A stretch of 64,000 bases of DNA from Undaria pinnatifida. Taxonomy: Eukaryota > Sar > Phaeophyceae > Laminariales > Alariaceae. The translations under genes and the position numbers were made by a program. Positions 11,209-42,725 of the stretch are shown piece by piece (the stretch's first letter is position 1; the number at the start of each line of letters is the position of its first letter). The notes beneath the pieces were generated by a model. It did no database searches and was not told where the DNA came from. It was given only the letters and a program-made list of their open reading frames with translations. The stretch covers positions 9,500,121-9,564,120 of the forward strand of contig JABAKD010000016.1 in the NCBI GenBank assembly GCA_012845835.1, written 5' to 3'.

Positions 11209-11215
11209 GTATCGC

Positions 11216-19393: not shown

Positions 19394-19468
19394 GTAACGA
19401 GGATTCACAAAGCGGCACAGCGCGAAGCCGGGGGGGGTGGGGGTGGGGGGGGGGGGGGGGACGGCGGC

Positions 19469-23562: not shown

Positions 23563-24474
23563 GTATTTCCGACGATTTCCGGGTTAAGGAGCCCCGTCAT
23601 ATTCAGAAACATTTTCAGCCAAAAAACGGTATACCTTAATACCTCTATGTCAGACGATTTCGGGTTAAGGAACCCCCGTCCGTCATTCAGAAAACCATTT
23701 CAGCCAAAAAACGGTATACCTTAATACCTTCATGTATTTCCGACGATTTTCGGGTTGAAGAACTCCGTCCGTCAGTCAGAAATATTTTCAGCCAAAAAAT
23801 GATATACCTTAATACCTTTATTTCAGACGGTTTCGGGTTAAGGAGCACCGTCCGTCAGCCAGATTTTTTTTCAGCCAAAAAATGGTATACCTTAATACCT
23901 TTATTTCAGACGATTTCGGGTTAAGGAGCACCGTCCGTCAGTCAGAAACCATTTCAGCCAAAAAACGGTATAACTTAATACCTCTGTGTCAGACGATTTC
24001 GGGTTAAGGAGCCCCCGTCAGTCAGAAAACCATTTCAGCCAAAAAACGGTATACCTTACCACCTCTATTTTAGACGATCTGGGGATTAAGGAACCCCCGT
24101 CATTCAAAAAACCGTTTTCACCAAAAAACGGTATAATATCTTAATACCTCTATTTCAGACAATTTGGGGATTAAGAAGCCCCCGTCATTCAGAAAACCGT
24201 GTCAGCCAAAAAACGGTATGCCTTACCACCTCTATTTCAGACGATTTGGAGATGAAGGAGCCCCCGTCATTCAGAAAACCGTGCCAGCCAAAAAACGGTA
24301 TACCTTTATACCTCTATTCCAGACAATTTGGGGATTAAGAAGCCCCCGTCATTCAGAAAACCATGCCAGCCAAAAAACGGTATACCTTAATTACTTTGTC
24401 TCAGACGATGTGGAGGCAAGGAGTCCCCGTCATTCAGAGAACCATTCAAGCCAAAAAACGTTATACCTTAACCG
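23563..24474 (+). repeat. Rep-F tandem array, about 11 units of 83 bp
   Basis: Each unit has GACGATTT-GGGTTAAGGAG, CCGTCATTCAGAAA, CAGCCAAAAAACGGTATACC and TTAATACCTCTAT. The GACGATTT box starts near 23571, 23652, 23740, 23826, 23909, 23993, 24074, 24157, 24240, 24323 and 24404. Single units are dispersed at 18080, 20445, 25155 and 37250. Confidence 0.95.
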
Positions 24475-24539: not shown

Positions 24540-25321
24540 CCTATGAGCCACCCCCCCCCCCCCCCGTGGCCTAGATATATATATATACCTGGTATATATA
24601 TTTTTTCCTATTTCGAAACCAGAATGACTTTCAGACGACGATTTGGGGGGTTAAGGACGCCCTGTCGTTCAGAAACTATTTTAAAGCGTTTTAGGAATGC
24701 AAGGAGGCGACAAAATCTATGTTCTTCCTACCTTGCCGCACCTGCCCCCCCCGCCCTCCCCCCCCGCTGGTTGGTGAAAACCCGACGTGCTTCGTCCCGG
24801 AATAGGAGGGATGCGAGGGCCTATGGCCATACGACTACGGCCATGCATGAACATCGAATATTGAGTACCCCCGTCCCCGTCCCCGTCCCCCTCCCCCCGG
24901 CAAGCGATGTCTGCCTGGTTGGTGAACACCCGATGTAGTTCCCATGGGCCACGGTACAGACGTACATCAGACACGCCTTTTTTTTTTCCCCCGGCGAGCT
25001 TATGACTCAAGGAGCTCTATATACCTTCACTCACCCCAAAAACTGATTTTGATATGAAAACTGAAAACGTGCAGTCCGACGAACAACCCGTAACCCAGAA
25101 TTATACTTCGAAGTACAAAACAACGTGCTTCATTTCGGAAAAACAAGAACGATATATCCCGACGATCTGGGATTAAGTGAGCCGTGCTTTCAGAACACAA
25201 TTTGCCCAAAAGTTGCTACCTCTTTATGTATCGTAGCGCGCGTCTGTGTACCCCGTCCCGATATATATAATAAAGATGCGGGTCTAGGATCCAAGGGAGT
25301 TCGGCCATCGGAGATAGGATC

Positions 25322-25352
<31 letters not shown>

Positions 25353-25440
25353 ATCCCCCTCTCCCGCCTCCCGCCCCTCCCCGTGGAAGGACGTCGCCAC
25401 AAATGTGCAACCAAATTACAAGCACAGCGCACTCCGGCAG
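24540..25440. repeat. Rep-D copy, homopolymers and a Rep-F unit
   Basis: Rep-D copies lie at 24764-24850 and 24900-24945. A (CCCCGT)n patch is at 24870-24890. A diverged Rep-F unit is at 25155-25230. A poly-C run of about 30 bases spans 25323-25352. No gene is recognised. Confidence 0.6.
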
Positions 25441-25478
25441 CGACTTTTTGGGTGGCTCTCGTACAAGAATCCATCAAG

Positions 25479-25514
25479 AAAACAGTGGCGGCGGAAAGCC
25501 CCCGCTTCCTCCCG
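25479..25514 (+). CDS. linker exon L0 of the WW array (candidate)
   Basis: The frame ends GGGKPPLPPG at a clean phase-1 donor (CTTCCTCCCG then GTATGT). Joined to the next WW exon at 27064 it gives PLPPG-W-S-A, the canonical LPxGW opening of a WW domain. The end is well supported by its match to seven other linker exons. The start is uncertain: the AG at 25478 gives phase 1 and a 36-base exon, but AGs further upstream keep the frame open too. Confidence 0.55.
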
Positions 25515-25721
25515 GTATGTATAATGAGTGTATAGTGAGTGGTGGTCTGGTGCGTGCCTTTTGGGCGTCGCTTACTGGTACTGCGTGCTGTTCGCGAACA
25601 GGCGCGTGTCACCGAGGGAGAACAATGTGGATAGGAACGGTCATGGAGAGGTACTGTGTAGTACGACATAATATATATGCTGTGGTTGTGAAGGTGGTGG
25701 TGATGGTGATGGTGATGATGA

Positions 25722-25753
<32 letters not shown>

Positions 25754-25887
25754 CCTCCGGCGGATGGGGAAAAATAAAGCTTTAGCTCACCACACTTCCA
25801 CGTATTTTCATACGCGTTGTGTGTCGAACTCAGTTGCTTTCGCAGCCCAACGCTAGCTGGCGCACCCTTCGGGTCCCATTCATTGTA

Positions 25888-26350
25888 GGTGATGATGATG
25901 ATGATGATGGTGATGATGGTGATGACGGTGATGATGCTGATGGTGATGGTGATGATGATGATGGTGATGGTGATGATAGTGATGGTGGTGACGATGATGG
26001 TGATGATGGTGATGGTGATGATGATGATGGTGATGGTGAGGGTGGTGATGATGACGGTGATGATGATGATGGTGGTGATGATGATGGTGATGCTGATGGT
26101 GATGATGCTGATAATGCTGATGGTGATGGTGACGGTAATGATGATGATGATGATGATGGTGATGATGGTGATGATGATTGTGATGGTGATGATGATGGTG
26201 ATGGTGATCATGGTGATGGTGATCATGGTGATGATGTTGATGATGATGATGGTGGTGCTAATGATGATGGTGGTGCTGATGATGGTGATGATGATGGTGA
26301 TGATGGTGATGGTGGTGATGATGACGGCGATGATGATGATGATGGTGGTA
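25888..26350 (+). repeat. (GATGGT/GATGAT)n microsatellite
   Basis: About 460 bp of imperfect GAT/GGT trinucleotide repeat. It makes long Asp-rich, Met/Val-rich or, on the other strand, Ile/Thr-rich frames. These are artefacts. A poly-T run lies just before, at 25730-25751. Confidence 0.97.
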
Positions 26351-26399
26351 TGATAGTCAAACGTCATCGGACAGTAGAACGGTATACGCAATGGCAGTA

Positions 26400-27063
26400 A
26401 TGATGATAGCATTATCTCTCACCGATACATATTATGCGAGTGTTGGGCACGTCGCGCCCGTACGTTTTCCAAGGATTTTAGTATTTGTTGGCGTCGACAT
26501 GAAGGCTATCATATTGCTTCGAGGGCTACACCGTACATATACATGTTTGTGCCGAACCGGCGTCCTTTTTTTTTTTTTTTGTGTCCGATACAGCCTGTTA
26601 GGGTCAAAATCGCGCGACATCGCCGTGAAAAGAGACGTATCGAACTATCAATATGTCTGACGCGTGGTGTAGAACGGACGACGGCCCTATGTTTGCTCTC
26701 AATGTGCACGCAGAATCTGATGTGAATGGGAGCATAATAACCGTACCTCCCATACCGCCTTCCTTGAAGTTGGAAACTGATTAACGTATTGAAATAGTAT
26801 GCATCAGCTAAATGTCACCCCCAAACCCCACCCCCCAGGTATTATCATTGCTAATAATTGAGTACACCCCCCCCCAGGTACCATTAATGGTGGTGAAATA
26901 CAGTTTTGTAATGCAGTTTCGAGTCGCAACAAATGCGCCAGCTGCCCACAGACAGGCGTTTCGTGTGGTTTGGATCTCATCCCTGTATGGCGTTTTTGCT
27001 CCGCGCGTCTAAGATCAAGTGCTAACCTCAACTGTTTTTCTCGTGATGCCGCATCGCATGCAG
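26400..27063. other. no recognised gene; intron-like upstream of WW exon 1
   Basis: No domain or repeat copy is recognised. The last 60 bases before 27064 are pyrimidine-rich (CTGTTTTTCTCGTG) and end in GCAG. Confidence 0.45.
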
Positions 27064-27180
27064 GGTGGAGCGCCTACAGGACGAAGAACGGAGAGATGTA
27101 CTACGCTAACCATCTCGACAAAATCACCACTTGGATCAGACCCGGGTCTCCTGAAGCCTCACCATCGGCATCGTCAGCAC
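27064..27180 (+). CDS. WW-domain exon E1
   Basis: 39 codons, phase 1 at both ends. The acceptor is ATGCAG and the donor follows ...TCAGCAC. The exon starts on the first WW tryptophan (WSAYRTKNGEMYY), continues ANHLDKITTWIRP, then has a Pro/Ser-rich tail. All core WW positions are present: first Trp, Gly-x-x-Tyr-Tyr, Asn-His, Thr-Thr-Trp, Pro. WW domains bind Pro-rich ligands, often PPxY. The Gly and the LP that normally precede the first Trp come from the preceding linker exon. The donor GTCAGT is weaker than in the sister exons. Confidence 0.85.
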
Positions 27181-27844
27181 GTCAGTACCACGCGGCGAGC
27201 GCCTGCAGCCGCTGCCCGCGCAGGTCCCACCGCAGGAAACTGTTTTGACCTTTATAATAAGCGAAAAAATATTCACACTACGATGCTTTTGAGCTTTTTA
27301 TCGGGGTGGTACGTTTTTGGCGTTTCTTTTATCCAACAACGGCAATTGTGTCATTGTGCGGCGAATTGGTACATGACTCGGCCCCGTCGTTGAGTGTGGA
27401 TAGCGCAAGAACGTCTTCTCCTTCGGCCTCCCCCCTTGTCGAAAGCACCACGACTACGCGTCCTAAATCTCGGGCCAGGCTTTCGCTTGCCTAGCGGTGC
27501 CACGCCCAACTGAAACGAGCCGGTTTTTGCTTCGTCAATGCTATCAGAACACGCCAAAATTAGACAACACCGCGCAGCCGGCCCCTTAGCTTGGTCATCA
27601 TCAGCGAAATGTACGGTTGATTCTGTTATATCTGGTATAGCACTATCAACTGGTAGACCACTCAGACGCAACATACTCTGCTGTGCCGCACCTGGTGCGT
27701 TTGTGAGCGTGTTGGCGTGGCGATCAGGGAGCGAAACGGGAACAATATGCGGGTGGTGCGCGTAACTACCGCTATTGCGCAATTCTCTGACAAAGAGGGA
27801 AACGCTACTTATTTGCTAGTATTAATATATTCGAGTCACTTTCA

Positions 27845-28230
27845 GGCAAGAATATGTTTACGACGTACATGAAAAAATAAAACAACCTGGCACCTCTCGT
27901 GGTGCTGGGGTGTTTGCTTTTGAACGCATCTGCCTTTTCGGGCAGGTACCCTGCAAACGTCGCCAGCTCTTGGAGGCGGCCCAGCGTTTGACGCCCATAG
28001 AAGCCCTGCTGCTGCTGTTTCTGCTGCTGCTGCTGGTGAGGCTGGCGTTGGCGTTGGTGCTGGTGACGCCGCTGCTGGCGTGGCTGCCGTTGGTGCTGCT
28101 GATGGTGCTGCTGTTGCCGCTGCTGGCGTGGCTGGTGGTGGTGGTGGTGGTGATGATGCTGCTAGTGTGGCCGGAGACGGTGCTACCGCTGGTCGTGGCG
28201 ACGGAGATGGTGGTCGATACATGGAGCAGC
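27845..28230 (-). other. Gln/Pro-rich trinucleotide repeat, possible coding exon
   Basis: A CAG/CAC-type imperfect repeat leaves three minus-strand frames open. One is Gln/His-rich and ends in a non-repetitive segment (GFYGRQTLGRLQELATFAGY) that looks more protein-like than its surroundings. Another is Pro/Ala-rich and starts MYRPPSPSPRP. Without splice support I cannot choose one. The + frames are Leu/Val-rich and probably incidental. Confidence 0.3.
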
Positions 28231-28523
28231 CCCTGGGTTCTGGTGAGAAACTCTTTCCGCCAACGTTTATTTTGCCTTGACAACGCCGTCCAGCGGTGTG
28301 CCTACTGCCGTGTCTATTGCAACAACACTCATTCTTGCTATAATGTGATTACTATGGTATCTGGTACGTGTGTTTGGTTTTACTCGGCGAAGTTGTGGCG
28401 AGCAACCTTTCCCACTGCGTCAGCTACAGCAGTAGTACGTTTTTGTTGTGCTCTACTATTCTGCTGTGGTCCTACTCGTGTGCTTCCGTCCCCCCGAACC
28501 GGTGATATCCTGGCTAAACGCTG

Positions 28524-28524
<1 letters not shown>

Positions 28525-28571
<47 letters not shown>
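28525..28571 (+). repeat. (CTA)n microsatellite
   Basis: About 16 perfect ACT/CTA units. Confidence 0.97.
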
Positions 28572-28572
<1 letters not shown>

Positions 28573-28639
28573 ATCGAATGGTACGGCGGCTGCCCCGCGA
28601 AGTAGGAATTCGTCATCGATCGGTATTATCGTCATTCAC

Positions 28640-29400
28640 GGTTAACGCACATGCCCCCCGCCCGTGAGTTGTCACACATGCTACGGTAGCCGTACCCCTG
28701 AACTTTCCCGAGGCTGACGCGTGCTTCGGTACCGTACAGATACTAATAGCACTTTCTGGGGGGAAAAAATGTTTCCGGAAAGCAAGGGACTCCTCAAAAA
28801 AAACAAAATCGTCGGAATGCCATTCTTGTTCTGCACTTTGTGAATACGTTTTATCTCTATTAGTAGGCCGTGGGTTTGGTCATTGGGTTTGCGCTTTCAG
28901 CTTACTAAAAAAAAAGTGTGTTTTTTTTTGGGGGGGTGAGGCAATAACGCTCCTCATGATGTTGTAAGAGAGAGCCTCAGAAAAAAAAAAAATGTGGTTC
29001 CCCTTTCACCGTGTGGCATGTGCCGACTCCTCGCTTGAGGGAGAAGTCTGCACCAAAATTGTACCCCAAAAACTTGACCTTGACAAGACGTGAACGTGAA
29101 GCGCAACTAGCAACCTCATGGTCCAGGTACAGCGAAACCAGGGATCTGCACGGGTCGGACCAGTTCCCGCGGGTCGGATCGGGATGTCAGGGCGACCCGG
29201 CCCGACCCGTGATACTTGGAAACCCCCCTTGACCAGCACCCGACGCTACCCGTGAGAGCTCGATCCCCATCCTGGCCGGACCCGACTCGACCCGCGAGTT
29301 GTAAAAGCCTCCTGAGCCGAGCCGCGAGCCGGATCATGACCAGTGAAGATATATATATATATATAACGGATATATATATATATTTTTGCACACTTACTTT
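28640..29400. other. no recognised gene; GGGTC/GACCC remnants
   Basis: 29148-29300 holds scattered GGGTCGG and GACCCG motifs resembling decayed pieces of the 16.5 kb satellite. An (AT)n run lies at 29348-29381. Confidence 0.5.
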
Positions 29401-29687
29401 CACTTTCCAGCTTCTGGACAAGCCGTGGTCACAGGTGTCACCCCTTCTCCTCCCAGGTTCTCGCCTTGAATTTTTATCTCGCATAGGGTTCAGCAATCCC
29501 ACTGCTCGTCGATGGTTCATCGAGTGTTGCTAACTCACGCTCTCGCGCTTTCCGCAAGTAAGTCAATTTGTCCACAAGAAAAAGTCCCAACGAATATATA
29601 CGAGTATGCACTCGGCGGGGCTCGAACTCACGAAACTGACCTATACCAGGCTCGAGGATACCCTGATACGCCACCGGGGCGACCGGT
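29401..29687 (-). repeat. tRNA-derived SINE, copy 2
   Basis: Alignable end to end with 2405-2690, with small indels. The minus-strand head again carries GGTGGCGTATCAGGGTA and GAGTTCGAGCCCC boxes. Confidence 0.7.
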
Positions 29688-29884
29688 CTATTATATACTC
29701 AATTGGTGTTCCGACGACATCAGGCATTCCCTAAGTCGAGGAGTTCCGTCGATTAGAAAAATGTTGGGCAAAGAAAACGCGAGGCTTTTCGCGGATCATG
29801 ATTCGGCCCACGGCTCGGGTCCCAGTGGGTTTTCAAAAACTCGCGGATCGTTTAAGTATAAAGTCAATTCAGCTGTCCCGCTGC

Positions 29885-30055
29885 CTTAAAAGTCTTTGGC
29901 GGTCCCCTCACTCGGCGGTCCCGCTACCCAAAACCTCTTCGCGGTCCCCTCTCTCGGTGGTCCCGCTGCTCAAAACCCGTTGGCGGTCCCCTCGCTCGGC
30001 GGTCCCGCCGCCCAAAAACGCTCTAGCGGTTCCCTCACGCGGCGGTCCCCTAACG
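29885..30055 (+). repeat. 43 bp tandem repeat, about 4 units
   Basis: The unit is close to GCGGTCCCCTCGCTCGG then CGGTCCCGC and CCAAAAC. Units differ at several positions. Confidence 0.85.
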
Positions 30056-30612
30056 CACTACAGTTTTCAAAAACTCGCGGATCGAGTCGGGACGTGATCG
30101 AAATGGCATGGGTCAGCTAGGGCCGAGTCGGGAGGTGTTCAAGTCTCAAGCGTCGGGTCAGGTCACCCTGTGCCGGTCCGACCCGCGAAAAGTTACCCGA
30201 CCTGTGAACAGCCCCGAAAAAACGGTATCCCTTCTATCAAAACACGTGTCTTGTGACGAGGAAATAAAACATCGCCATTGTGGTGCAGCCAATTCATCGT
30301 TCCGCGTGCGCACCCTTACCCTTCCTTGCTCTGCATATAGTATATCAGAAAACATCGACTGTTTTTGTTTTGGAATATGACTGATTCGATAGGGGCGCGA
30401 ACCCCCCTCCCCCCCTCCCCGCGTAGCAGTCCGCATCATCTGGCCCCACGAAAAATCTTGGTTACGTTATCTCACGTACCAAACCATGTTAAACGCGAGT
30501 GCCTGCTACGACACCCACCTCTGCTTTGACACGCCGATGCCACCCCACCCACTTTACGGCTTTGGCGTTGCGCTCCCACCCTTTTCCCGACTTTTCTGTG
30601 TTGAAGAACCAG

Positions 30613-30672
30613 GACCAGGTAGCGACGCCAAAGGCACACCGCCCGAGAGCGGAAAAGCTCCGTTGCCACCGG
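30613..30672 (+). CDS. linker exon L1 of the WW array
   Basis: 20 codons, phase 1 at both ends. The acceptor is GAAGAACCAG after a pyrimidine-rich tract (CCCTTTTCCCGACTTTTCTG). The donor is CCACCGG then GTAAGG. It encodes a Gly/Ser/Pro-rich peptide ending SGKAPLPPG. Spliced to E2 it gives LPPG-W, the textbook start of a WW domain. The exon has no domain of its own. Confidence 0.65.
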
Positions 30673-31011
30673 GTAAGGGCGCAACCTCGACTCTGATTGG
30701 CTTGTTGCGCGGTGGATAATACGACGTTTTTCTATCTGGTCTCTTCCCGTTATGAATGTTTTGTTTTTTTTTGCTTCGCAAGGCTTGCCTTGTGCAAGGC
30801 GAAGAAAAAACGGCCCAGCAGTGTAGCTTCGCTCCCTTGTTCTTGCCTCGATATTAAAAGGCGCGCGCGTGCTACGACAAAGGTATATGAAGCACCTACT
30901 GACCAACATCCTTCTGGCCGACTGCATTATGATACGAGACTAATCATCTGAGGCACAAAAAGCCAACGTTTTATTGGGATTTAATTTGTGTTTGAAATTC
31001 GTAGAGTTGTC

Positions 31012-31255
31012 CCACGGTAGGAGTCATGGTTGCAGTTGTTGGATTAGCTAATAATGTACCTGCAGCCGATTGAGCTCCTCAGGTAGTGAGGAAACTGCCG
31101 GATAGTCACTGATCAAGTAATTTCACGAGTACCATATATGTGTTTTAGGACTACTCTAAGGCATAGAAGCTCGGTCGGGTTGTGTGCAAACGAATGCCTT
31201 CCAAGTCATGTATTGATAGTATCGGGTGAGATATTGAGCTTCTCGTGTGAGGAGA
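31012..31255 (-). repeat. Rep-C dispersed repeat, copy 3
   Basis: Begins CCCACGGTAGGAGTCATGG and contains TTTCACGAGTACC and GAATGCCTTCCAAG. It ends GGGTGAGATATTGAGCTTC. It lies in the intron between L1 and E2. Confidence 0.75.
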
Positions 31256-31798
31256 GGAGTGATGGGACTCATGCTGCACCCACCTGCCGAGGGATGGCTC
31301 TGTAGTGTCGTTCGTATTTGTGTATGCGTGTGTGTCGTTGCACTTCTATTTGTTCTTCGAGGAGTGAGGTTTTGGGTGCATTGCAGAGCTCCCTTGAGTG
31401 AGGGAGCGTCAGAAAGTTCAGGTGTTTAACTACCAGTACCGTAGCACGGACTGACACAGTTTGGTGGGAACGGGGGTGTCTTCGTGAGTCAGTAGAATTT
31501 TATTTCACTTGGTTTTTCGGATCTTCCTAGCTAGGGCTCCAGCACCTTTCTTTGTGTCACCACGGACTCTAGATTTTTTACAAGAGTTAATGTGAGAAAA
31601 CAACAAACAAACAACAAGGAGCGGTTTTGTGTCAGCAGCTCGCGGGGACGAGGTTTGTGCGGCTCCAGCTCCAGGCCATCACGCGAACGTCCCTAGGAAT
31701 TTTTTGCAGTCCTGCTGTGGGCGTCGTCGAGAGCCATCACGAAAGCCCAATCCTTCGCTGCAACCTCGCAACACTTTTTCCGGGTCGATACTCTGCAG

Positions 31799-31936
31799 GA
31801 TGGAGCAGCCACATGGTGAACACGGGAGATGTGTACTACGTCAACCACGCCGACAAGACCACCACCTGGCTCAGACCCGTGACCGCTACCGCCGAGTCGT
31901 CGATATCGTCGCCGACGAAAGAAAAATCACCAGCAC
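31799..31936 (+). CDS. WW-domain exon E2
   Basis: 46 codons, phase 1-1. The acceptor is ACTCTGCAG and the donor is CCAGCAC then GTGAGA. It encodes WSSHMVNTGDVYYVNHADK, then TTTWLRP, then a Thr/Ser/Ala-rich tail ending KSPA. All WW core positions are intact. The tail (PVTATA..S) closely matches E5, which suggests a recent duplication between them. Confidence 0.88.
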
Positions 31937-32496
31937 GTGAGAGCAAGAGTAGCCCGGCAACCTATAGTCTAGTAGGCATGCAGGATGGCCGGTAGATCAT
32001 TTAAGACTATATTTGCACGACAAACTATTTGATTTTGCTTTGTTTGGTTGTTGTGTGTTTTGGCATTTTCCCTCACGACTATCAACGCTGGGCGCCAAGA
32101 GCTCTAATACGAACGATCGTCGTACACCGGACACGGCTTGCTCCTGCGGTCAGCGGTATTTTGTGGCTAAATCCACCTTCGCCTCCTTGATTCAATGCAC
32201 CGTCTCCTCCTTGGTTTAAGACATACGTCTTCTCCGTAGTTTAAAGACACCGTCTCCGCCTTCCCGATGCTAGGTTGTAGCAGCATCGCCACAGGGTCTC
32301 TTGTCCGAGCATGAGCTGTCCGACTAGGTGAAACGCACCCACACCACGGTCGTACCGCGACGACAACAAACCCGCACACGACGCTTGCCTTCCCTGCGCG
32401 CCTCGCAACTCCCCTGTCTGCTCGTTCCCACGCCATTGGGCCGCGACATGTGCGCTCGGCTCCTCGAACACGGCGGTGGATCACTTTACCATGCAG

Positions 32497-32562
32497 TAGC
32501 GGTCGCAAGCCGTCAACATGGGGGCACCACCGCCGTCAACGTGGATTCGCCGCTGCCGGCAG
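32497..32562 (+). CDS. linker exon L2 of the WW array
   Basis: 22 codons, phase 1-1. The acceptor is TTTACCATGCAG and the donor is CTGCCGGCAG then GTACGC. It encodes AVASRQHGGTTAVNVDSPLPAG. L6 at 40634 has the same length and aligns along its full length (A..SR.H....V...PLPAG). Upstream intron sequence is shared with the other linker exons. Confidence 0.68.
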
Positions 32563-32699
32563 GTACGCAATAAACGCCTGCCGCGATAGGAGTAGCGCTT
32601 GTAGGCCACAACAAATCGGACTGACGGGGCTCCTCCAGTGGGGAACTACTCAATAGCGTTTGATTTGTACTGGGTCGTTAGTTGAATGCCCGTTGTGAT

Positions 32700-32957
32700 A
32701 CTATGGCATTACTTCGTATGGTATTGTGCTCGTTGTGCTTGCAAAAAAGATACAGCAGTGTGGCCGTTTTTTTTTTTTGTATCATGGGATTTTCAATGAT
32801 CGACTGGCTACATCGTAGCGGGATATCGGGATAGCGGGACTTGTTCCGGTCCATTTGACCGCCTGCCTTCTTTGCACGCCTCGTTGTACTCGGGAGCACT
32901 TTTCGTCGTGCTCGGGAGAAGTTTAATATATACCAGGTACATGTTGTGTTTGTCCTT
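32700..32957 (-). repeat. dispersed repeat, also at 33738-33985
   Basis: Both regions share CGGGATATCGGGA, GTACTCGGGA(A/G)CACT and a TTGTTTTTCGT/TTGTCCTTTGT end. They flank the TRIM-2/tRNA cluster on each side in the same orientation. Minus-strand frames in both read KLLPSTT..PEY, but neither is open throughout. Confidence 0.6.
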
Positions 32958-33308
32958 TGTTAAATTATAGGTGGGGAAAAGGTCTACCGATAGCTTACCC
33001 AAACTAAGCCTTATAACACTCTTTCCCCCTGAAACGGCGGGATAGCAGGTCGGCCGGATATACGGCGGACCTCTGTCAATATCCAAGCCGCTTCATTTCC
33101 TGGGGATACCACGGAGAGTATTTTTCAAGTTCGACACTTGGGGAAACCTGAAAAGTTTTTTGTTGTGGATGGTGGGGATCAAACCCACGACCCAAAAACC
33201 CATGGTCTGTCGACGACGCCATTTGTTAAGGTTATTAGTGCGGAATTAGTCCGTTCGACCACTTGCAAAAGGTCAACCGATAGCTTACCCAAACTAAGCC
33301 TTATAACA
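32958..33308 (-). mobile_element. TRIM-2 copy A
   Basis: LTRs are at 32958-33018 (shortened, 61 bp) and 33224-33308 (85 bp). Both run TGTTAA...TTATAACA. On the minus strand an AGGGGGAAAGAG polypurine tract touches the 3' LTR, and TGGCGTCGTCGACAGAC follows the 5' LTR after two bases as primer site. There is no coding capacity. No target-site duplication is evident (CCTT against TTCT), so the copy may have been rearranged with the inverted copy next to it. Confidence 0.85.
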
Positions 33309-33315
33309 TTCTGGT

Positions 33316-33387
33316 TCCCTCGTAGTCCAATGGTTAGGATATATGACTCTCACTCATGAGACCCGGGTTCAATTCCCGGCGAGGGAG
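33316..33387 (+). tRNA. tRNA-Glu (anticodon CTC)
   Basis: A complete cloverleaf can be folded by eye. The acceptor stem is TCCCTCG with CGAGGGA. The D arm is GTCC with GGAT. The anticodon arm TATGA-CTCTCAC-TCATG gives anticodon CTC. The T arm is CCGGG-TTCAATT-CCCGG. The discriminator is G at 33387. There is no intron. The next three bases are CCA, which is unusual for a eukaryotic nuclear tRNA gene and could reflect a reverse-transcribed copy or chance. Inverted TRIM-2 LTRs lie within 8 bp on each side. No T4 terminator is seen until about 45 bp downstream. Confidence 0.92.
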
Positions 33388-33393
33388 CCAGAG

Positions 33394-33540
33394 TGTTATA
33401 AAGGCTTAGTTTGGGTAAGCTATCGGTTAACCTTTTGCAAGTAGTCAAACGGACTAATACCCCACTATAACCTTAACAAATGGCGTCGTCGACAGACCAT
33501 GGGTTTTTGGGTCGTGGGTTCGATCCCCACCATCCACAAC
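33394..33540 (+). mobile_element. TRIM-2 copy B (truncated, inverted)
   Basis: An 85 bp LTR (33394-33478, TGTTATAAAGGC to CCTTAACA) is followed by AA and the primer site TGGCGTCGTCGACAGACC. Then comes the tRNA-like segment with GTGGGTTCGATCCCCAC. Homology to other TRIM-2 copies stops near 33540, so the rest and the second LTR are missing. It forms a long inverted repeat with 33161-33308 around the tRNA-Glu gene. Confidence 0.85.
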
Positions 33541-33737
33541 AATGGTAAGGCTCGTCGAACCACCTTCTACTAGTGACTCCATTAACCCGCTACTTGTCCG
33601 TCCAACGGGTAAGCCCGCTACGCTTCGAAGTTCATGAAGTTTACACGATTAAAGTCCTATGTGACTACGATGGTAAGAGAGTGAAAACCCTGTAGAATAC
33701 TTGGTGCCGCATCACTTAAAAAGCAAGGGGGGCTGTT

Positions 33738-33985
33738 CGTTGTGCTTTTGGTACAATGCGAATATGTCAACGGTTTGGTGATATTATGAAATTTTCCAGT
33801 AATAATTTGGCCACATTGGTGGCGGGATATCGGGACGGTAGGATAAGTTCTGGTCTAGTTGACTTCCTACTTTCCCACCGAGTGCCCTTCTTGTGGTACT
33901 CGGGAACACTCCTCGTTGTACTCGGCAGGAGCTTGATATACACATGATGCGTTTGTTTTTCGTACGGGCAACTCCACTGCCCCAC
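33738..33985 (-). repeat. dispersed repeat, partner of 32700-32957
   Basis: Diverged copy of the left flank of the TRIM-2 cluster. A 30 bp motif (AAGCCCGCTACGCTTCGA) also occurs twice nearby, at 33611 and 34008. Confidence 0.6.
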
Positions 33986-34019
33986 TCCTGTTTGCACGAC
34001 GCACGGTAAGCCCGCTACG

Positions 34020-35191
34020 CTTCGAGGTTCATGAGAACATGCTGTGATATTTTGCTATTATTAGGCTATAGTAAAATATAATATTACATGATACTATAGT
34101 ATAGACTATGGCATAACGTAAAAATATATTATAGATAGGTCACGGGATTGCTCGTCTGGTTGCTATCATGATAGTACGATATACCGGGTATGATATTATG
34201 ACATGTCATAATATGTGACAGGTCATGGGATTGCTCGTCTCGGATTGACCTGTCGTCTTTTATCACAGTGACTAGTCGGGCTTTGGGTTTGGTACGGGCG
34301 TGCTTAAATCAGCCTCCCAAATTTCGATGCAGCCCTATCGTAGCACGCGTCATTGGTTACGTGCGAGACAATCACAGGCGTCTACCCTGGAATATTGTAG
34401 TATTCGGGGATTAATCGCGGTGCTTTTAGTGACCAAGACCACGATACCATAAATAAATATACATCGTAGATACACAGTAGTATTATACGCTCACTTTCAC
34501 GACCAGATTTAGGTCGCTCGCGCGAGCAGCGCTGCATCTCCCTCACAAACAGGCTTAAACGTTCATTAAACACTGGCGCAGCGTAACAAACAATTCCACG
34601 GCGATCAACACCGCCCAACCGGAAAGCACAGAAGAATGTCACGTCGGCAACAAGACAAGTTAGCCACTGACAACAACAGTGGTTCTGCGCTTCTGAAAGA
34701 AGAGACTCTTAACATGACCTCAGGAGAAGGTGCACCTTTCAGGTGTGCAGTCTCCGTAGGGTCTGTCGCAAAAGGGAACAAAAGAAGGAAGTGTGAATGC
34801 GACGGTGTCAAGTTGGTCCTGAACCAGGGCAGCTCGAAGTAAGCTGCGGTGCTGATGGTGTTGAGCTAAGCCACGCAGGGTGGACCGCACTTACGCTTCA
34901 ACAAAACAACCTACAGTCGGCCTGATTCAGCACGGAGCAGATACACGTGCCACCATTGTGCTGAGTAACTCATTAACTGTACCTCTTGCCATGGACAAAA
35001 GTATCATAGAGGTAGTGGGCATTTCGCAACCGAAAACCTTCGAGGTCAAAAGTGATACAGCGCATCTTTCGCCCCGCGCGGTAGTCACCGTTGCCATCGA
35101 CGCTCCGTGGAAAACCAGAAATCTGGACCCGAGCCCTAAGCTTGTCCACCCTCGGATTGACTCCGAATCGGTTGCGCGATCGGAAATGCAG
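34020..35191. other. intron-like region before WW exon E3
   Basis: 34030-34230 is AT-rich. At 34876 a GCAG followed by GGTGGACCGCACTTACG resembles the start of a WW exon (G-W-T-A) but loses the domain at once, so it may be a decayed exon. The 80 bases before 35192 share CCCGAGCC-TAAGC-TTGTCCACCC-like sequence with the flanks of E5 and E6. Confidence 0.45.
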
Positions 35192-35326
35192 GATGGACGG
35201 CCTCCAAGACAGAGAAGGGAAACGTGTACTATATCAACCACGTCAACAAGACCACCACCTGGATCAAACCAGCAACCCCTAATGCTGCGCCGCGTACTCC
35301 ACCTCCACCAGAAGAGCAGCCAGCAA
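35192..35326 (+). CDS. WW-domain exon E3
   Basis: 45 codons, phase 1-1. The acceptor is GAAATGCAG and the donor is CCAGCAA then GTAAGC. It encodes WTASKTEKGNVYYINHVNK, then TTTWIKP, then a Pro-rich tail (TPPPPEEQPA). All WW core residues are present. Lys replaces the Arg before the terminal Pro of most sister exons. Confidence 0.88.
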
Positions 35327-35829
35327 GTAAGCATAAATGCGGATGACTTAATGGGTGCTAGAGTCGATGCTGCGTTACCTGTGTTTGAACGACTCTGTTA
35401 GCCTTAGCTGTTGACTTACAGTAGTTGTTAGCTTCAATGTATCTTAAGGTGTATTGCACGTGCCTGAACTCGTGTGCTAATCGCTAGGGGTCAAGGTCGT
35501 TATTAGCTAAATGGTTGTTCTTCATGAACCGGGCACGATCTTCTCCTGCCGCCGGTTCTGTTCGATGCCGAAAACACCGCATTATAATATCCGGTGCTGG
35601 GCTGCGGCAGCAGCGGCAAAGGCCACCTGCTCGAGTATGAGCTTTCCGGTTCGGTGGACGACTCCTTAACATTCCAGTGAACAGTGCCAATAAATGCGTA
35701 CGCCACGCTCACATTCACGGTCGGCAAGCCCGTACGCTACGCTCACCTCCGCAGTCAACAAACGCCTGCGCTACGCTTTTCTTCGCAATTCCGATACCCC
35801 CTTTGCCCACCCGTGTTTGCCCGATGCAG

Positions 35830-35946
35830 ACGCGACGCACGCGCGACCGTACAAACACGCTGGCCTGATTCGCCACGCGGAAAAAAAATCAAGCGGTCAA
35901 CCAGAAGGTTCCGCCCCCGCCAACGCTAAAGCATCACCTCCCGCAG
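35830..35946 (+). CDS. linker exon L3 of the WW array
   Basis: 39 codons, phase 1-1, the longest linker. The acceptor is GCCCGATGCAG after a T/C-rich tract. The donor is CCTCCCGCAG then GTGGGA. It encodes a His/Lys/Ala-rich peptide ending NAKASPPAG. The donor GTGGGA is weak. Confidence 0.55.
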
Positions 35947-36210
35947 GTGGGAACTTATTTACGTGTGGAGGGAACCATAGTGACGTCCCACGTGTACTTG
36001 GGCCGGTGCCTACATTAATCACATAACATCACAGGCCCATAAAGAACGCTTTGAAGGTTCATCCATAGTGGCATCTTGCTGATAGGAGTGATTGGGCCGG
36101 GAGCCAATCGCAACAGTAGCACAGACCCATGAGCCTGGTGAAGGTTCATCCTGGAGAGATGCCATAAATGACCGTCGTGCACCGTACACAATCTGTCCCT
36201 TCCGTCGCCG

Positions 36211-36936
36211 GTGCTGGTTGCCGGGAATACCTTCTTCTCCGTGCCAGTGCTAAGCTGCGCTGGCCAGTACCAGGGAAGGACGTCCTTACAGTGCCAAACT
36301 GAGCTCTTCGAAAAAGTAAAAGTCAGCGATTGCACACCCCTGAACCGCCACAACATACTCGCGCGACACACTTACCTCCGTGCGTCCTGCGCGCTCCTTC
36401 CCATCCGTTTCCGCCCGATTGGGAATCGACTCATGCGCTTGGGCCTCCAAACGCACTTTTCGAAATATGGAGAAGACGTTGCAAGCCATCGAAAGAGTCC
36501 CGATGCTCCCGTTCACGTTGAACCAAAGCGTTCTGAAGGTGCGTCTTGTTTGCATGTGGGAGAACCGACGGTGTCCTCTCCGAGGTGTTTGGAAGAAACT
36601 CCAGCCCCACGATCTCACGGCTTCACGCGTCGAGGACCAAGGCTATACTATCTGTGGCGTCGTAGTCACTTAACACTACTTGTAGTCTGTACTACAGCGG
36701 TCACGTTTAAGGCTTTATTTTCAAGCAACTCAGAACCACTCGTGCAACTAGTTATTAATAGCGATGTGCTTTTCGGTTTCAAGATATGCACCGCAGACAC
36801 ATTCTGGGGTACAGGTGCACCAACCATTCTTTTTTCTGATACTAATCCTCACTTGAAGTACCTTCTGAGGAAAAATCTGATTTCGAGTAAAACTGGATCG
36901 TTCTACGGTAGCCCCCGCGACTTTTCTCTTTTTTAA
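36211..36936 (+). other. long open frame spanning linker L3b, probably incidental
   Basis: 241 codons without a stop, covering the L3b exon and running into the first MITE-1 copy. No domain is recognised outside the linker. The length is above chance for this window but the repeat insertion at its 3' end argues against a single exon. Confidence 0.2.
36476..36538 (+). CDS. linker exon L3b of the WW array
   Basis: 21 codons, phase 1-1. The acceptor is TATGGAGAAG and the donor is TTCTGAAG then GTGCGT. It encodes DVASHRKSPDAPVHVEPKRSEG once the shared first base is added. It aligns with L2 (VAS....VHVE against VAS....VNVD) but ends KRSEG, so it would not supply an LP motif. No WW exon lies between L3 and L3b or between L3b and L4. 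Confidence 0.45.
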
Positions 36937-37163
36937 CAAAATCGCCGGTTTCAAAACCAGCTCCCGGTCGTATCTCCCGAAACACGTACGGTGTCCCTCG
37001 ACACCCCGAAGTCATCGATCGATAGGCCTTCGCGCACAAGAAAATATATGGATACCGTTGTTTTCAATTGCATCCTTCCTTGTGTCGGGCGGCCATGAAA
37101 ATCGTTTGTCCAAGAAAACCGCGGATTTTTTTTTTTTCGGGGGGGGGCTATCGTAGAATCAGT
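36896..37163 (+). mobile_element. MITE-1 copy 1
   Basis: About 268 bp. It begins GATCGTTCTACGGTAGC and ends GCTATCGTAGAATCAGT, imperfect inverted ends. Internal sequence (AAATCGCCGGTTTCAAAACC, GGTGTCCCTCGACACCC, ACAAGAAAATATAT) matches the copy inside WW exon E4. No target duplication is evident here. Confidence 0.75.
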
Positions 37164-37249
37164 CTTTTTTTTTAAGTGAAATCCAATGAACAATCCCATT
37201 GCCCTAGCTAAACAACATATATATAGTCCATGTATTGCAAAAAATATTG

Positions 37250-37345
37250 AAATTCTTCTGACGATTTTGGGTTAAGGAGCCCCGCCATTCAGAAGAAAAA
37301 AATGGCCGAAAAATGCTACCTCCGTCATAGCACGCCGTCCGCAAT
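37250..37345 (+). repeat. Rep-F single unit
   Basis: GACGATTTTGGGTTAAGGAG then CCCGCCATTCAGAA and GCTACCTCCGTCATAGCACG, one diverged Rep-F unit. Confidence 0.7.
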
Positions 37346-37652
37346 GTGGAATTGGTTATTACGCTGCGCCAACACAACCTGGTTTTTGTCCGTTTTTTTT
37401 TAGTGACATACTGAGAGCCACGCGCGCGAGTCGCCTTAGCTCGGTAGAGAAAACTGTGGTGTATTTGCGATACGCAATACTGTACGTTCTGCTATAATAC
37501 TATGCAAAATGCGCTTAAACCACGACCACAAAAATCGTTTCGTCTCGCTTACCTTCGCGCATCCGATACATTCCTACCCGCCTGCGCTCGGGCTGTCGGG
37601 ACATGGCGCGAACGATTGGTCCTACCAACACGCTGGCCCATCCATGTGTCAG

Positions 37653-37724
37653 GAGCCATATCGAACCTCAACCGTCATAAGGAACGGGCCGCCTCGGTCG
37701 GCCCCAGACCACGGCTTTCCGCAG
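37653..37724 (+). CDS. linker exon L4 of the WW array
   Basis: 24 codons, phase 1-1. The acceptor is CATGTGTCAG and the donor is TTTCCGCAG then GTACGT. It encodes AISNLNRHKERAASVGPRPR, then LSAG. It aligns with L6 through the R-H and A-S-V positions. Its LSAG end departs from PLPAG. It immediately precedes the broken WW exon E4. Confidence 0.55.
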
Positions 37725-37933
37725 GTACGTTCAGAATGCTAGATAGCCCATTGCTAGATAGCCCATTGTGTAATCCCAGGACCGTGCTTGGGTCCCAACG
37801 CTTTTTTATTCCTCAAATTGCCGCGCGAGGGAACCGCAACGGGTAGTGGCACGCAGTGGAACGCGTCATACCGAAGCCGCGTCTTGCCCACCGACTCATC
37901 TACCAAAACTAAGCTTAGCAACTGAGAACGCAG

Positions 37934-38338
37934 GATGGAGCTGTTGTACGACGAAGACAGAAGACGAGTACTACGTAAACAACGCCTGAGTCGTTCTACG
38001 GTAGCTCCCCCAACTGTTTTTCTTTAACGAAATCGCCGGTTTCAAAACCAACACATCCGGCCGTATCTCCTGAAATACGGTGTCCCTCGACACCCTCCCC
38101 GACGTCGTCGATCGTTAGAGTTTTGATAACAAGAAAATATATTGATACTTTTTTTCTAATAGTATCCTTCCTTGTGTCGAGCAGCCATGATTGATGATTG
38201 ATGATGAAACGTTCGTTGAAGAAAATCGCTGGTTTGGGGAGGGCTATCGTGGAATCGGTCGCCTGCAAGACCACCACCTAGACGTGACCCGCGGCCGCGA
38301 ATGCCTAGCTGTTGCTCCCACCGCCGCAAACAGGGGTT
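37934..38338 (+). pseudogene. WW-domain exon E4, broken
   Basis: The first half (37934-37988) encodes WSCCTTKTEDEYYVNNA in the same phase as its sisters. A 271 bp MITE-1 then interrupts it. The second half resumes at 38266 with AAGACCACCACC, but the second Trp codon is TAG and another stop follows. The exon therefore carries an insertion and point nonsense changes. It marks a fourth WW position that has decayed. Confidence 0.88.
37989..38259 (+). mobile_element. MITE-1 copy 2, inserted in WW exon E4
   Basis: 271 bp, starting AGTCGTTCTACGGTAGC and ending GCTATCGTGGAATCGGT. The inverted ends match at 11 of 17 positions. It is flanked by CGCCTG at 37983-37988 and CGCCTG at 38260-38265, a 6 bp target-site duplication. 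Excising the element and one repeat joins the two halves of the WW exon in register, which fixes the boundaries. Confidence 0.88.
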
Positions 38339-38689
38339 ATTGCTCTTGTTGTTGTTCTCACATAACCTCGCATAATCAAGTCCGTGGTCACAGGACAGGC
38401 TCCAGTCACTCTGGAGCTGAGGAATACCCCAGGGAAAAACACAAACAATCCAAAGGTGGTGCACCCATATATCACAGCTGACGCAATTCATGCCTCCGCT
38501 AGAAACATGTAAAAAGTGAAACCGGGTCTCAGCCTACGATGTGCCAGGTCCATACTGGTGCATAAGTTTCACTACTCACGCCTGGAAAAACCGACTATAA
38601 CCGCTTGCCACCCAGGAAATACCACCACGTATATATTACACGCAGTACCTATCACTACGCATACGCACGTCAGACGCAAGTCAATTGGA

Positions 38690-38825
38690 AAAAAGAAACA
38701 AAGAACAAAAAAAAGAGAAAGTAAAGGAAATGAAAGAAAACAAAGCGAGAAAGGAAAGAAAAGAAAAGCAAGAAAAAACAAGACAAGAAGAGGAAGCAAG
38801 GAAAAGAAAAAAGAAAAAAAAGTCA
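38690..38825 (+). repeat. (GAAA)n-rich purine tract
   Basis: Imperfect A/G-rich repeat of about 135 bp. The Lys-rich and Phe-rich open frames across it are artefacts. Confidence 0.85.
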
Positions 38826-39544
38826 TACTAGCAGACCCTAGGAACTGACTAAACACGGCATTGGGCTCATAGAGGGTATCAAGTGCATCAACGGCACTGG
38901 GGAGAGAACGCAACTAAGGCGAAGAAGTCAGGGCGGCCTTGTGCTAACTTGTGGCGGCCATTGGAAGGCCCACAAATTTCAAGACGATGATGGCCAGACC
39001 CAGACTTCAGTCTCTTGGGCAGGACGCCCCCCCTCCCCGCCCCCCGTACTAGCACATGAGCACGAGCTTGACCAGAGAAACCTAAGCATGCTGTAAGGGT
39101 TAGCATAACGTAATGGGTTGAGATGCTCTCTCTGTTGGGCCTCCTTCCTCCTTTGCTGTTCGTGTTTGCTAGTCTCGAGTTTTCGCCACATCTATACTCA
39201 TCATCAACGCTGGAGGTTAAGAGCCTCGACCTGCGCGCTCAACACGCACCGGACGCTGCCTGACCCCGCAGCCGACGGTATTTGCTCGCAGAACCACCTT
39301 AATCTCCTTGTCGGTGCTAGTCGACGGTAGTGACCGCGAATGGCGCATACTCTATATACTGTAGTGAAAGGAAGAGCTCTCCCATGAAGGGGTTTCAAAC
39401 CGCGGATACTCGTGAACCGCAACGACAAACTCGTCCGTCACGCTTACCCTTCCACGACCACGCCCTCCTGCCCTCCCGTGCCCGTCCTATTGGAACGCGG
39501 TGCGTACTTGGCCGTCCGGATAGGCGGGCCAACCCATACGGAAG

Positions 39545-39601
39545 CCTTTAAAACCTGCAAACAAGCCGGTCTTGGTGCCGTGGAACCACCGCTTCCTGCA
39601 G
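39545..39601 (+). CDS. linker exon L5 of the WW array
   Basis: 19 codons, phase 1-1. The acceptor AG is in CATACGGAAG and the donor is CTTCCTGCAG then GTACGC. It encodes (A)FKTCKQAGLGAVEPPLPAG and ends in a perfect PLPAG for joining to E5 428 bp downstream. The acceptor lacks a strong pyrimidine tract right before it, so the start is less sure than the end. Confidence 0.6.
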
Positions 39602-40028
39602 GTACGCGTGTACGAGACAACCCGATGCGTCGTCCCAATATAATAGTGTTATCACGGCAATGCGGGCCGTTCCAAAGACCGGTATCCGCGAGCTTTTAGG
39701 GGTCTACCGTCGTTGTTGCCCAACGCAAAGCAGACTCACGCATCATTATACATATTAAGTTGCCAGTGGCACCAGGCTGGGGAAACGATGATTGGTGTGC
39801 GGTGATTGTTGCTACGAAATGTGTCGACGCCAAATGAAATTAAACACGACGTTTTACGACACGAGAAATTACGGTCGACAGGGACATTCGGTAAAAATGA
39901 TTGTAATAATGGGATCTCCGCATTAGGCTTCTCTCTTGCGGACTTCCTGCCCTAGTGAACCGGGCCCGAACCTTGTCCACCCCCGCATCTAAGACCACTG
40001 ATCGGGCTTCAAAACTCGGGGGGCGCAG

Positions 40029-40166
40029 GATGGAGCTCTTCCAAGACGAAGACGGGAGATGAGTACTACGTGAACCACTTCGACAAGAGCACCACCTGGG
40101 TCAGACCCGTGACCGCTACCGCCAAGCCGTCGACATCGTCACCGCCAAAAGCAAGGCCACCAGCAC
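40029..40166 (+). CDS. WW-domain exon E5
   Basis: 46 codons, phase 1-1. The acceptor is GGGGCGCAG and the donor is CCAGCAC then GTGAGC. It encodes WSSSKTKTGDEYYVNHFDK, then STTWVRP, then a Thr/Ser/Pro/Lys tail ending ARPPA. All WW core residues are intact. Its length and tail match E2. Confidence 0.88.
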
Positions 40167-40633
40167 GTGAGCGCAAGAGTACAGCAATCAGTCTGGTAGA
40201 GTGGATGCTACGTTGCTTCTGCTGCATGGCTCGTTCTTCTTGGGTCGTGTGGCATGTTTGTTCGTGTCTGAAGTCTTCGCTGCGGCCCGCCTCTTGTGTC
40301 AATCGCTGGCGGTGAAGAGGCGTGCAATAAATACATGTTGTGCACTGAACACGACTTACGCCTGCCGCTAGTGGTGCCTGTTATCTAAACTACCGCCTTG
40401 TCCATGCCGGTACTATTCATATGTCGCGCTGGTAGCGGCAAATAGAGCCTGCTCGCTCACGGGTTCGTACGCGTTGAAAAGCACCCAAACGTAGGCTTGT
40501 GACGCGACAGCAAACGCGTACATCACACTTACCTTCGAGGTTCCCTTGTCCCCTTACCCACCCGTACCCGTGCTATCGTGACGCGGCGCGCACGCACGGT
40601 CTTCCGAATGCGCTGGCCCGACTCCCCTTGCAG

Positions 40634-40699
40634 CAGCCTTTAAAAGCCGTCACCACAGAAGAATCGCCTCCGTCGAGATGAAGCCGCCGCTTCCTGCAG
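40634..40699 (+). CDS. linker exon L6 of the WW array
   Basis: 22 codons, phase 1-1. The acceptor GACTCCCCTTGCAG has a good pyrimidine tract. The donor is CTTCCTGCAG then GTGCGT. It encodes AFKSRHHRRIASVEMKPPLPAG, equal in length to L2 and alignable throughout. Joined to E6 it restores PLPAG-W. Confidence 0.7.
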
Positions 40700-41089
40700 G
40701 TGCGTCTTCTATTGTTGTGAAAGTGGACGCGGATCAAGGCTACGCGGGACAAAACAGTATATTAGAGTCTCGTGTTCATTTGTGCCGCGTTTTAGGCAAC
40801 GCGATCGAACAGTGGTGTACGTCACTCAAAAACGATCTTGAAAAAACGTGTCAAGTGTCGAGGCTCAACAAACCCTTCCACGCCCCGGTTTATACCGCGA
40901 AATCGACAAGCACCTCTCTGCCCAAGGATGCGGGGGAAGAGCGTGGTCACTTGCGCGAGTGATCCTGGGTCGATGAGAACCGAGGGCCTGAACGTGACCA
41001 GTACAGTATACTACCGTAACGTTGGTCTTGAGTCATCCCACGGTATGCATTAGGGGTGCTGCAGCAGAAGTTTCTGAGAGCGCCTAACA

Positions 41090-41306
41090 TGAGTTGCTCA
41101 GAGTACCTCCCCCGAAGCATGACTTCAAAGACCTTCGTTCGCGCAAAACCGACCAACGTTTCTCATTCGATAATCCTAAAACAAATGTGGTACTCGTAAA
41201 AACTACCTGGTACCGTATTAGCCGATATTGCCGCGCTCGAGGAGCCCAACCGCTCACAATCATTTCGTTTTACAACTGCAACCCCTACCGTGATGTGACT
41301 CTCTTC
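41090..41306 (+). repeat. Rep-C dispersed repeat, copy 4
   Basis: Diverged. It shows CCTTCGTTCGCGCAAAACC, CCTAAAACAAATGTGGTACTCGT and CTGCAACCCCTACCGT in Rep-C order. It lies in the intron before E6. Confidence 0.6.
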
Positions 41307-42005
41307 GGGGCTCTGAACCATCCAACCAAGTTGTCGTCCCCAAAGTGCTGCTTGGGTTGGGGGGAACATCTCGCACGATTTCGCGGAAACATGTGTTGTC
41401 TGGCAAGCATGTATCCGGGAATCCTTTCGAGTTGTCCCACCTTTGGCGCATCTTTCACAAGAAGCGTGTACGGCGACGGAGCCTGGCTACCGCGAGGTAT
41501 TCGTTGAGCTCACATTGAGTTGTCTGCGGTGCCGATCGCCTCTTATGTTGACTGCCGTAGGCCGTCTGCATTGCCCACAGCTGGGCTGGCCATGGTCGGG
41601 TGGATAGAGCGGAGCGTAAAATTTGTCGATGTTTGATCGTTCTTGGCGAACTAGCCTTGCACCGTCGCGGTTGATATATTTCGGAGCGGTCTATTACCCA
41701 GGATACCGACAAAAAAGAACAGTTATCTCTGGCGCCTTCAAAGGTTTGCCGTCGGTTTCGCTGAGCCGAATATGACTGCGCACGCCGTCACGCACATAAA
41801 GTCAGCAAAGACACCAGATAGGGGTAGGGATGGGAAGAGCACGGTAGTTGTGGCGTCTAAACATATCGACGCCTTACGTTATAATGTGCGTCATCCACCG
41901 TGCAAGGAAACAACGGCACCCGATGGGACACACTACTTCAGATCGAACCCAAGCCTCGTTTACCCCCGCATCAACCACGAATCGTCGTCGCATCTGGTGA
42001 CGCAG

Positions 42006-42125
42006 GTTGGAGCTCCCACACTAGCAAGACGGGAAACGTGTATTACGTCAACCACGCCGAAAAATCCACCACATGGGTCAGACCCGCAGCTACTCCAGCT
42101 ACGCCGTCGCCTATCCAAGTAAAAC
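42006..42125 (+). CDS. WW-domain exon E6
   Basis: 40 codons, phase 1-1. The acceptor is TGACGCAG and the donor is TAAAAC then GTGAGT. It encodes WSSHTSKTGNVYYVNHAEK, then STTWVRP, then a short Ala/Thr/Pro tail (TPATPSPIQVK). All WW core residues are present. It starts with GT rather than GA before the Trp codon, which still completes a Gly codon after a linker ending in G. Confidence 0.88.
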
Positions 42126-42725
42126 GTGAGTTAGCAAACCGTACTGCGGCTTTAAAGCTAGAAAAGGTGCCTGTGGCATTGTTGTATGAAGAGGTTTGAC
42201 AATTTGGTTAGCCGGAGGCAGGCGGCATATTTTAGAGTCTTACCGAACAAGAGGGCAAGCTGGTCTTGTTTCCTTGTTCGCTGGGTGAACACGGCAATGT
42301 TTTCCAAGGCAAGAAAGTTTTGAGCACCTTTTTCACCGGCGAGGTTGCCCAAGAACTCACTGGCGGCAGGACCCACCGACGTATTGGAAGCTTGGGTATC
42401 GTACCTCGGGGTGCAGAATACTCACGTTAAATACGCGACAGGTCCATAATTAGGGGGCAGCTTTCCGACGTGCGAAAGTTTCGCTCCCGCAACCCTGCAC
42501 TCACGGGACGGAATCCCGGTTACCTAACTGGTAAGCCACCTTGAAGTCTGGCGTGACCCTTTAGCGCGTATCTACTGGAGAGCTCGTGATTTTTGCGCAT
42601 GGATATCGTGGAAACATTTATGATCGTCCCGTCTTGAGTCGTCAGGTTTGGCGTGTCAAATGCTGCCTGTTTGACGCTTTGACAACCCGCTATTTGTTAC
42701 ATAAGGTACGTTTGAAAGATGCAAG

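Follow-up and report, generated by a model that had tools for sequence, protein, structure and literature searches.

Whether a row of WW-domain exons and short linker exons in a kelp genome encodes a single protein that carries many binding sites of a similar kind, a stock of parts for many isoforms, or the remains of a gene that is being lost, is the question raised by the locus studied here. It lies in Undaria pinnatifida (assembly GCA_012845835.1, contig JABAKD010000016.1), in a stretch of 64,000 nucleotides which we call the window (C22:9500121-9564120; GC content 50.7%), and the genome searched comprised 511,146,479 bases in 68 contigs. The answer that we favour, with a probability of about 0.6 judged from the sequence, is a single PPxY-binding poly-WW adaptor gene, which would have been enlarged by the copying of a cassette and would be spliced mostly in genomic order. 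Its product is probably a single protein whose many binding sites resemble one another, and not a mix-and-match set.

WW and linker exons of the array

A preliminary description of the locus had reported five intact WW exons on one strand, and this was borne out: the plus strand carries five intact WW exons (E1 to E5, Table 1) plus one broken. In each of the five, the acceptor AG is followed by GN TGG, which places a phase 1 intron between Gly and Trp, just as had been described, and the 3' end is a GT donor, also in phase 1, with all lengths being multiples of three. Two Trp residues spaced 20-23 apart, the aromatic block and the closing Pro are invariant among them. The profile check that had been proposed, against Pfam WW (PF00397; cut-off 26.9 bits), was passed by all five, with 30.9-40.0 bits for the exon alone and 36.8-46.4 bits after joining to the PLPxG of the preceding linker.

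Eight linker exons had been counted in the preliminary description; linkers are indeed present, and nine candidates (La to Li) were found. The accompanying claim that all bounded exons are multiples of three with phase 1 at both ends holds for the five WW exons and for six of six linkers from Ld to Li, the acceptors of which are a proposed AG near one alignment column (farther upstream in Le) and not transcript-based, while La, Lb and Lc have no fixed 5' end. That almost any linker could rebuild LPxGW proved right as regards phase and too broad as regards sequence, since only five of the nine end in LPxG, the others ending in SPPAG (Le), RSEG (Lf), LSAG (Lg) and LGSG (Lb). A strict pattern of LPxG followed by a GT donor, the donor part of which was tightened after a looser first scan, gave five matches on the plus strand of 25001-42200 (at 25514, 30672, 32562, 39601 and 40699), none on the minus strand there and one in the remainder of the window on both strands; in 500 single-base shuffles the mean was 0.16 and none reached five. 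The looser scan had added two array matches, at 27496 and 41496, with the poor donors GTGCCA and GTATTC, as well as two further plus-strand and three minus-strand sites outside the array, and these extra sites were dropped for their poor donors or unsuitable place. In codon usage, the own frame was the best of three in 14 of the 17 candidate exons (the exceptions being La, Lg and the broken WW exon), a comparison that is biased by stop codons in the alternative frames and on which we do not lean.

A probable duplicated cassette

The duplication of flanking intron sequence, which had also been noted before, was upheld by z scores and by alignment. Among the 200 bases upstream of the linker acceptors, 11 of 36 pairs exceeded z = 3.5, all within Ld to Li and with a maximum of 9.6; upstream of the WW exons 4 of 15 pairs exceeded z = 3, and so did 4 of 15 downstream of them, with a maximum of 9.9 for E3/E4. 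Downstream of the linker donors, none of the 36 pairs passed the threshold. The stretch from E3 to Le can be aligned with that from E4 to Li over its whole length, with 43-75% identity in blocks of 60 columns, and the stretch from E2 to Ld resembles both at its WW and linker ends, with up to 90% identity, some of its middle blocks being at 30-40%, which is the chance level for gapped alignment. The introns of the three pairs (E2-Ld, E3-Le and E4-Li) measure 560, 503 and 467 bases. E1 shares the common exon, and its sole related flank is the downstream one, weakly similar to that of E2 (z = 3.6); the flank comparison gave no related flanks for La, Lb and Lc.

The copied unit thus appears to be one WW exon, an intron of about 0.5 kb and one linker exon, and local exon duplication, introns included, is well supported as the origin of the copies. 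Since copies of a unit with phase 1 at both ends are necessarily all in phase 1-1, the uniform phase of the array is largely one fact, mostly inherited with the cassette, and it does not by itself argue independently for shuffling or for combinatorial splicing. Of the architecture that had been proposed for exon duplication, shuffling or combinatorial splicing, it is the duplication that finds support, and not shuffling between genes or combinatorial splicing. As a source of the exons, shuffling between genes was not supported, because E4, the sole exon searched, is matched closely only inside the window: the other four window WW domains scored 47-63 bits in its genome search, and the next best in the genome 35.

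Constraint on the predicted binding surface

When E4, the sole peptide searched, was compared with solved structures, 57 distinct sequences were matched at E up to 0.001, and the nearest were chains of ITCH, NEDD4L, YAP1 and WWP1. At the six positions predicted from YAP to contact PPxY, the residues Y, H, K, T and W are invariant in all five WW domains and the sixth position reads V/V/V/I/A. Equivalents of Tyr28, His32 and Trp39 in YAP numbering, the contact residues of group I (PPxY-binding) domains, are present in all five as well. Domains kept alike at their predicted contacts would suit an adaptor with several equivalent sites more than a variety of specificities.

In the core, 11 of 28 residues are invariant among the five domains. 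Neutral evolution was simulated on a star tree with the consensus as ancestor, in 20,000 runs at p = 0.15 or 0.16. At least 11 invariant residues were reached in 0.0026 and 0.0010 of the runs, respectively, at least five invariant contacts in 0.0004 and 0.00025, and 11 invariant residues together with the absence of any stop in 0.0005 and 0.0001. The preliminary description had named neutral evolution of the intact WW exons as contrary to its view; for the set of five it appears unlikely from these runs, a test that cannot date the constraint, past and present being inseparable in it. Pooled over the ten WW pairs, the proportions of nonsynonymous and synonymous differences (pN and pS) were 0.234 and 0.378, and the dN/dS-like ratio was 0.53. 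On the question of diversifying selection, the invariance of five of the six predicted contacts speaks against it, and the ratio of the E2/E4 pair lies above 1.

The upstream split domain

The preliminary description had let the array start at 25479. The gene extends upstream of this point, to a WW domain split over two exons, X1 and X2 (Table 1). Joined, and without an LPxG start, X1 and X2 reached 25.3 bits, below the Pfam WW cut-off, with a match covering the second half only, and the open frame containing X2 (19096-19521) had no Pfam match on its own at E 0.05. A search of the genome with X1, at E up to 1, gave seven matches, all of them within the window, C27 or C23, and those outside the window had E values of 0.15-0.35.

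Table 1. Exons and candidate exons of the WW array, in window positions
Feature	Position	Strand	Description
X1, first half of split WW	15831-15886	+	GWDAKLVRGKLVFVDHVTK; starts in phase 1, ends in phase 0; donor AAG/gtaagt
X2, second WW half and linker	19216-19393	+	TTQWENP...ESPPAG; starts in phase 0, ends in phase 1
La, linker	25428-25514	+	ends KPPLPPG/gtatgt; 5' end uncertain: 87 nt, or 36 nt from 25479
E1, WW exon	27064-27180	+	117 nt, phase 1-1
Lb, doubtful linker	27967-28242	+	Ala/Gly-rich; ends MEQPLGSG/gtgaga; 5' end open
Lc, linker	30613-30672	+	ends KAPLPPG/gtaagg; 60 nt or 54 nt, 5' end open
E2, WW exon	31799-31936	+	138 nt, phase 1-1
Ld, linker	32497-32562	+	ends SPLPAG; 66 nt, or 63 nt from next AG
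E3, WW exon	35192-35326	+	135 nt, phase 1-1
Le, linker	35830-35946	+	ends ASPPAG; 117 nt; acceptor farther upstream than in other copies
Lf, linker copy	36473-36538	+	ends KRSEG; 66 nt; acceptor weak; search for a WW exon separating it from Le negative
Lg, linker copy	37653-37724	+	ends PRLSAG; 72 nt
Broken WW exon	37934-38332	+	profile matches at 37934-37986 and 38266-38332
Lh, linker	39545-39601	+	ends EPPLPAG; 57 nt; weak acceptor
E4, WW exon	40029-40166	+	138 nt, phase 1-1
Li, linker	40634-40699	+	ends KPPLPAG; 66 nt, or 63 nt from next AG
E5, WW exon	42006-42125	+	120 nt, phase 1-1

Related exons on other contigs

Across the genome, Pfam WW gave at least 65 matches. The DNA upstream of the first Trp was inspected for 33 of 65, picked largely for clustering and including two that were unjudgeable, and an AG stood exactly at the Gly/Trp phase 1 position in 12: five in the window, four at C27:19.386-19.401 Mb and three on C23, where this intron type is found at two places. 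A profile scan beyond Pfam added further C27 WW exons of the Gly/Trp type. With the looser linker pattern, five of seven matches on the C27 minus strand (pieces L009-L011) and two of four on the C23 plus strand (L015-L016) lay upstream of a Gly/Trp WW exon, several of these seven linkers having non-standard donors, and the other four matches came after short frames or were distant from WW exons. In a further piece of C23 (L014, C23:8597001-8607000) the pattern gave three matches on the gene strand, none convincing. Four more matches fell on other strands. It was also observed in L014 that, on the minus strand at about 8603368-8603801, the open frame upstream of a lone Gly/Trp WW exon continues past SPLPRG into GSMYALLRSTLLRRNAKWNDKYVVI, which by eye resembles the start of a PH domain and had no Pfam match on its 29 residues.

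The gene at C27:19.379-19.407 Mb has seven matches to the WW profile, one of them being half a domain, and five are over the Pfam cut-off; with its Gly/Trp introns, it indicates that poly-WW genes are not confined to the window. At its C-terminus a SAM domain of two joined exons (SAM_2, 39 bits, cut-off 20.5) is followed by a stop; both were found by eye in the sequence and the domain was then confirmed by Pfam. A SAM motif pattern gave zero matches, C27 included, and a genome-wide search with the C27 SAM peptide (E up to 1), which a diverged SAM could escape, matched C27 only. The partner halves of the two C27 split-WW exons were looked for in C27 and not found. When the window was compared at the protein level with the C27, C23 and L014 pieces (best 40 rows each), its WW exons matched C23 and L014, many rows were pieces resembling dispersed repeats, and no shared coding piece beyond WW was recognised. 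In a tree built from 23 peptides, each 19-28 residues long, a length which gives weak trees, the five window WW domains clustered together with an ultrafast bootstrap (UFboot) value of 81, and X1X2 paired with C27:19404685 at 90 UFboot.

Discussion

With the exons, phases, related cassettes, broken copy and genomic relatives described above, the most probable picture is that one gene would encode a protein in which some five to six group I WW domains follow one another, separated by mostly short linkers. Each domain would be built from two exons, the linker exon ending with the LPxG start and the WW exon beginning at Trp, and the cassette would have been duplicated in tandem several times; as it has phase 1 at both ends, gains and losses of copies would preserve the frame. 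Splicing most likely follows the genomic order and skips the broken WW exon, and the protein may serve as a multivalent adaptor for partners with PPxY motifs.

Several findings weigh against this adaptor gene. In the broken WW exon a stop and an insertion, the latter including a duplicate of 36898-37098 that is about 80% identical to it, divide the domain, and Le, Lf and Lg lack LPxG. The X2 acceptor is poor, with 2 of 18 pyrimidines before the AG, so that, together with the missing Pfam match of its open frame, the use of X2 in splicing is doubtful. Codon usage is not clearly coding-like, as 7 of the 17 candidate exons fall below zero in their own frame; single-pair ratios range from 0.29 to 1.78, and E2/E4, the most similar pair, gives no sign of constraint, with 1.78 in the core and 1.27 over the exon. 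The first and last exons of the gene were looked for in the window and not found, and a Pfam search of 26 open frames from the window, most of them on the plus strand, returned a single match, to a retroelement RNase H. The broken exon with its insertion, the weak X2 acceptor, the degraded ends of Lf and Lg, the E2/E4 ratio above 1, the weak codon-usage signal and the missing start or terminal exon would also suit a paralog of the C27 gene in decay, one in which the cassettes were duplicated while it was active and from which exons and splice sites are now being lost. We consider such a relic unlikely, though a serious possibility, since, of the six unsplit WW exons, five are intact and keep both acceptor and donor, and five of the six contact positions are invariant, neutrality of the set being unlikely under a test that is blind to past versus present.

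It is very unlikely, in our judgement, that the locus is an array from which many isoforms are made by choosing WW and linker exons, thereby varying the number or kind of binding sites. Phase would permit any subset in order, as every WW exon, and every linker for which a 5' end is proposed, is in phase 1-1; linkers outnumber WW exons, Le, Lf and Lg being extra with no WW exon between; and, according to PMC11378527, brown-algal leucine-rich repeat (LRR) arrays of similar style have splice variants. However, the contact residues are nearly identical in the five domains, so that exon choice would change the number of sites more than their specificity. Moreover, direct joining of one WW exon to another would put Arg or Ser at the Gly position and would not restore LPxG, nor is it rebuilt by four of the nine linkers, and WW and linker exons mostly alternate along the locus.

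The adaptor gene that we favour resembles several known systems. The likeness to brown-algal LRR exon arrays that had been pointed out is correct according to Teng 2024 (PMC11378527), where the LRR exons of ROCO genes are 72 bp long, in phase 2 and hold one repeat each, with alternative splicing and with positive selection at four concave-face sites; tetratricopeptide repeat (TPR) exon arrays are cited there as well, as is Zambounis 2012 for LRR arrays. Tandem symmetric exons, a repeated binding module, the brown-algal host and a repeat number set by duplication are common to both, whereas the window differs in its phase 1, its two exons per domain and its nearly invariant contacts. Titles and abstract beginnings in the open-licence literature on WW domains, brown algae, kelp and Ectocarpus contained no WW exon array in brown algae, in agreement with the earlier remark that a WW version is, as far as known, undescribed, though one may still have appeared in print; the WW literature for brown algae seen in those titles and beginnings concerned calpains, myosins and unrelated subjects. 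A link to the brown-algal calpains with one WW domain (PMC10762896) was rejected, as nothing calpain-like was seen here.

The C27 gene is alike in its Gly/Trp phase 1 intron, its LPxG linkers and a split WW related to X1, and it differs in that its WW domains are mutually diverged and not recently copied, and in its C-terminal SAM domain. Among the multi-WW proteins of animals (YAP1, the NEDD4 family, KIBRA and MAGI), many have several WW domains in a row. The best matches of E4 among solved structures belong with proteins of this kind, and the window differs from them in that no HECT, C2, PDZ or any further Pfam domain was detected in the 20 open frames around the array.

With this locus, WW, a signalling domain, would join the modules whose repeats brown algae multiply through tandem copying of symmetric exons, and the duplicated unit of one WW exon, intron and linker is described in enough detail for copy-number change to be tested in other kelps. 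A bolder idea, which we hold as quite unlikely and put forward as speculation, is that the WW and linker cassette is a third kelp exon-array module beside LRR and TPR, in which copy number, and perhaps splicing, would tune the number of PPxY sites that a scaffold can hold, such that binding strength, and not specificity, would vary between isoforms, strains or species.

Additional observations in the window

Within 33224-33543 there is a tRNA-Glu (CTC) gene at 33316-33390, flanked by stretches, direct and inverted, that are about 89-92% identical to 48840-49218. On the minus strand, an open frame at 10608-11432 belongs to a retroelement (RT_RNaseH, E 3.5e-29), and the adjoining frames 9077-9775 and 9779-10501 had no Pfam match. 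A tandem array at 23564-24471 consists of 10.9 copies of an 82-base unit, to which pieces at 18076-18168 and 20446-20518 are related. Another tandem array, of GAT/GGT type, occupies 25888-26354 and is open in several frames, with poly-Asp/Gly in one of them.

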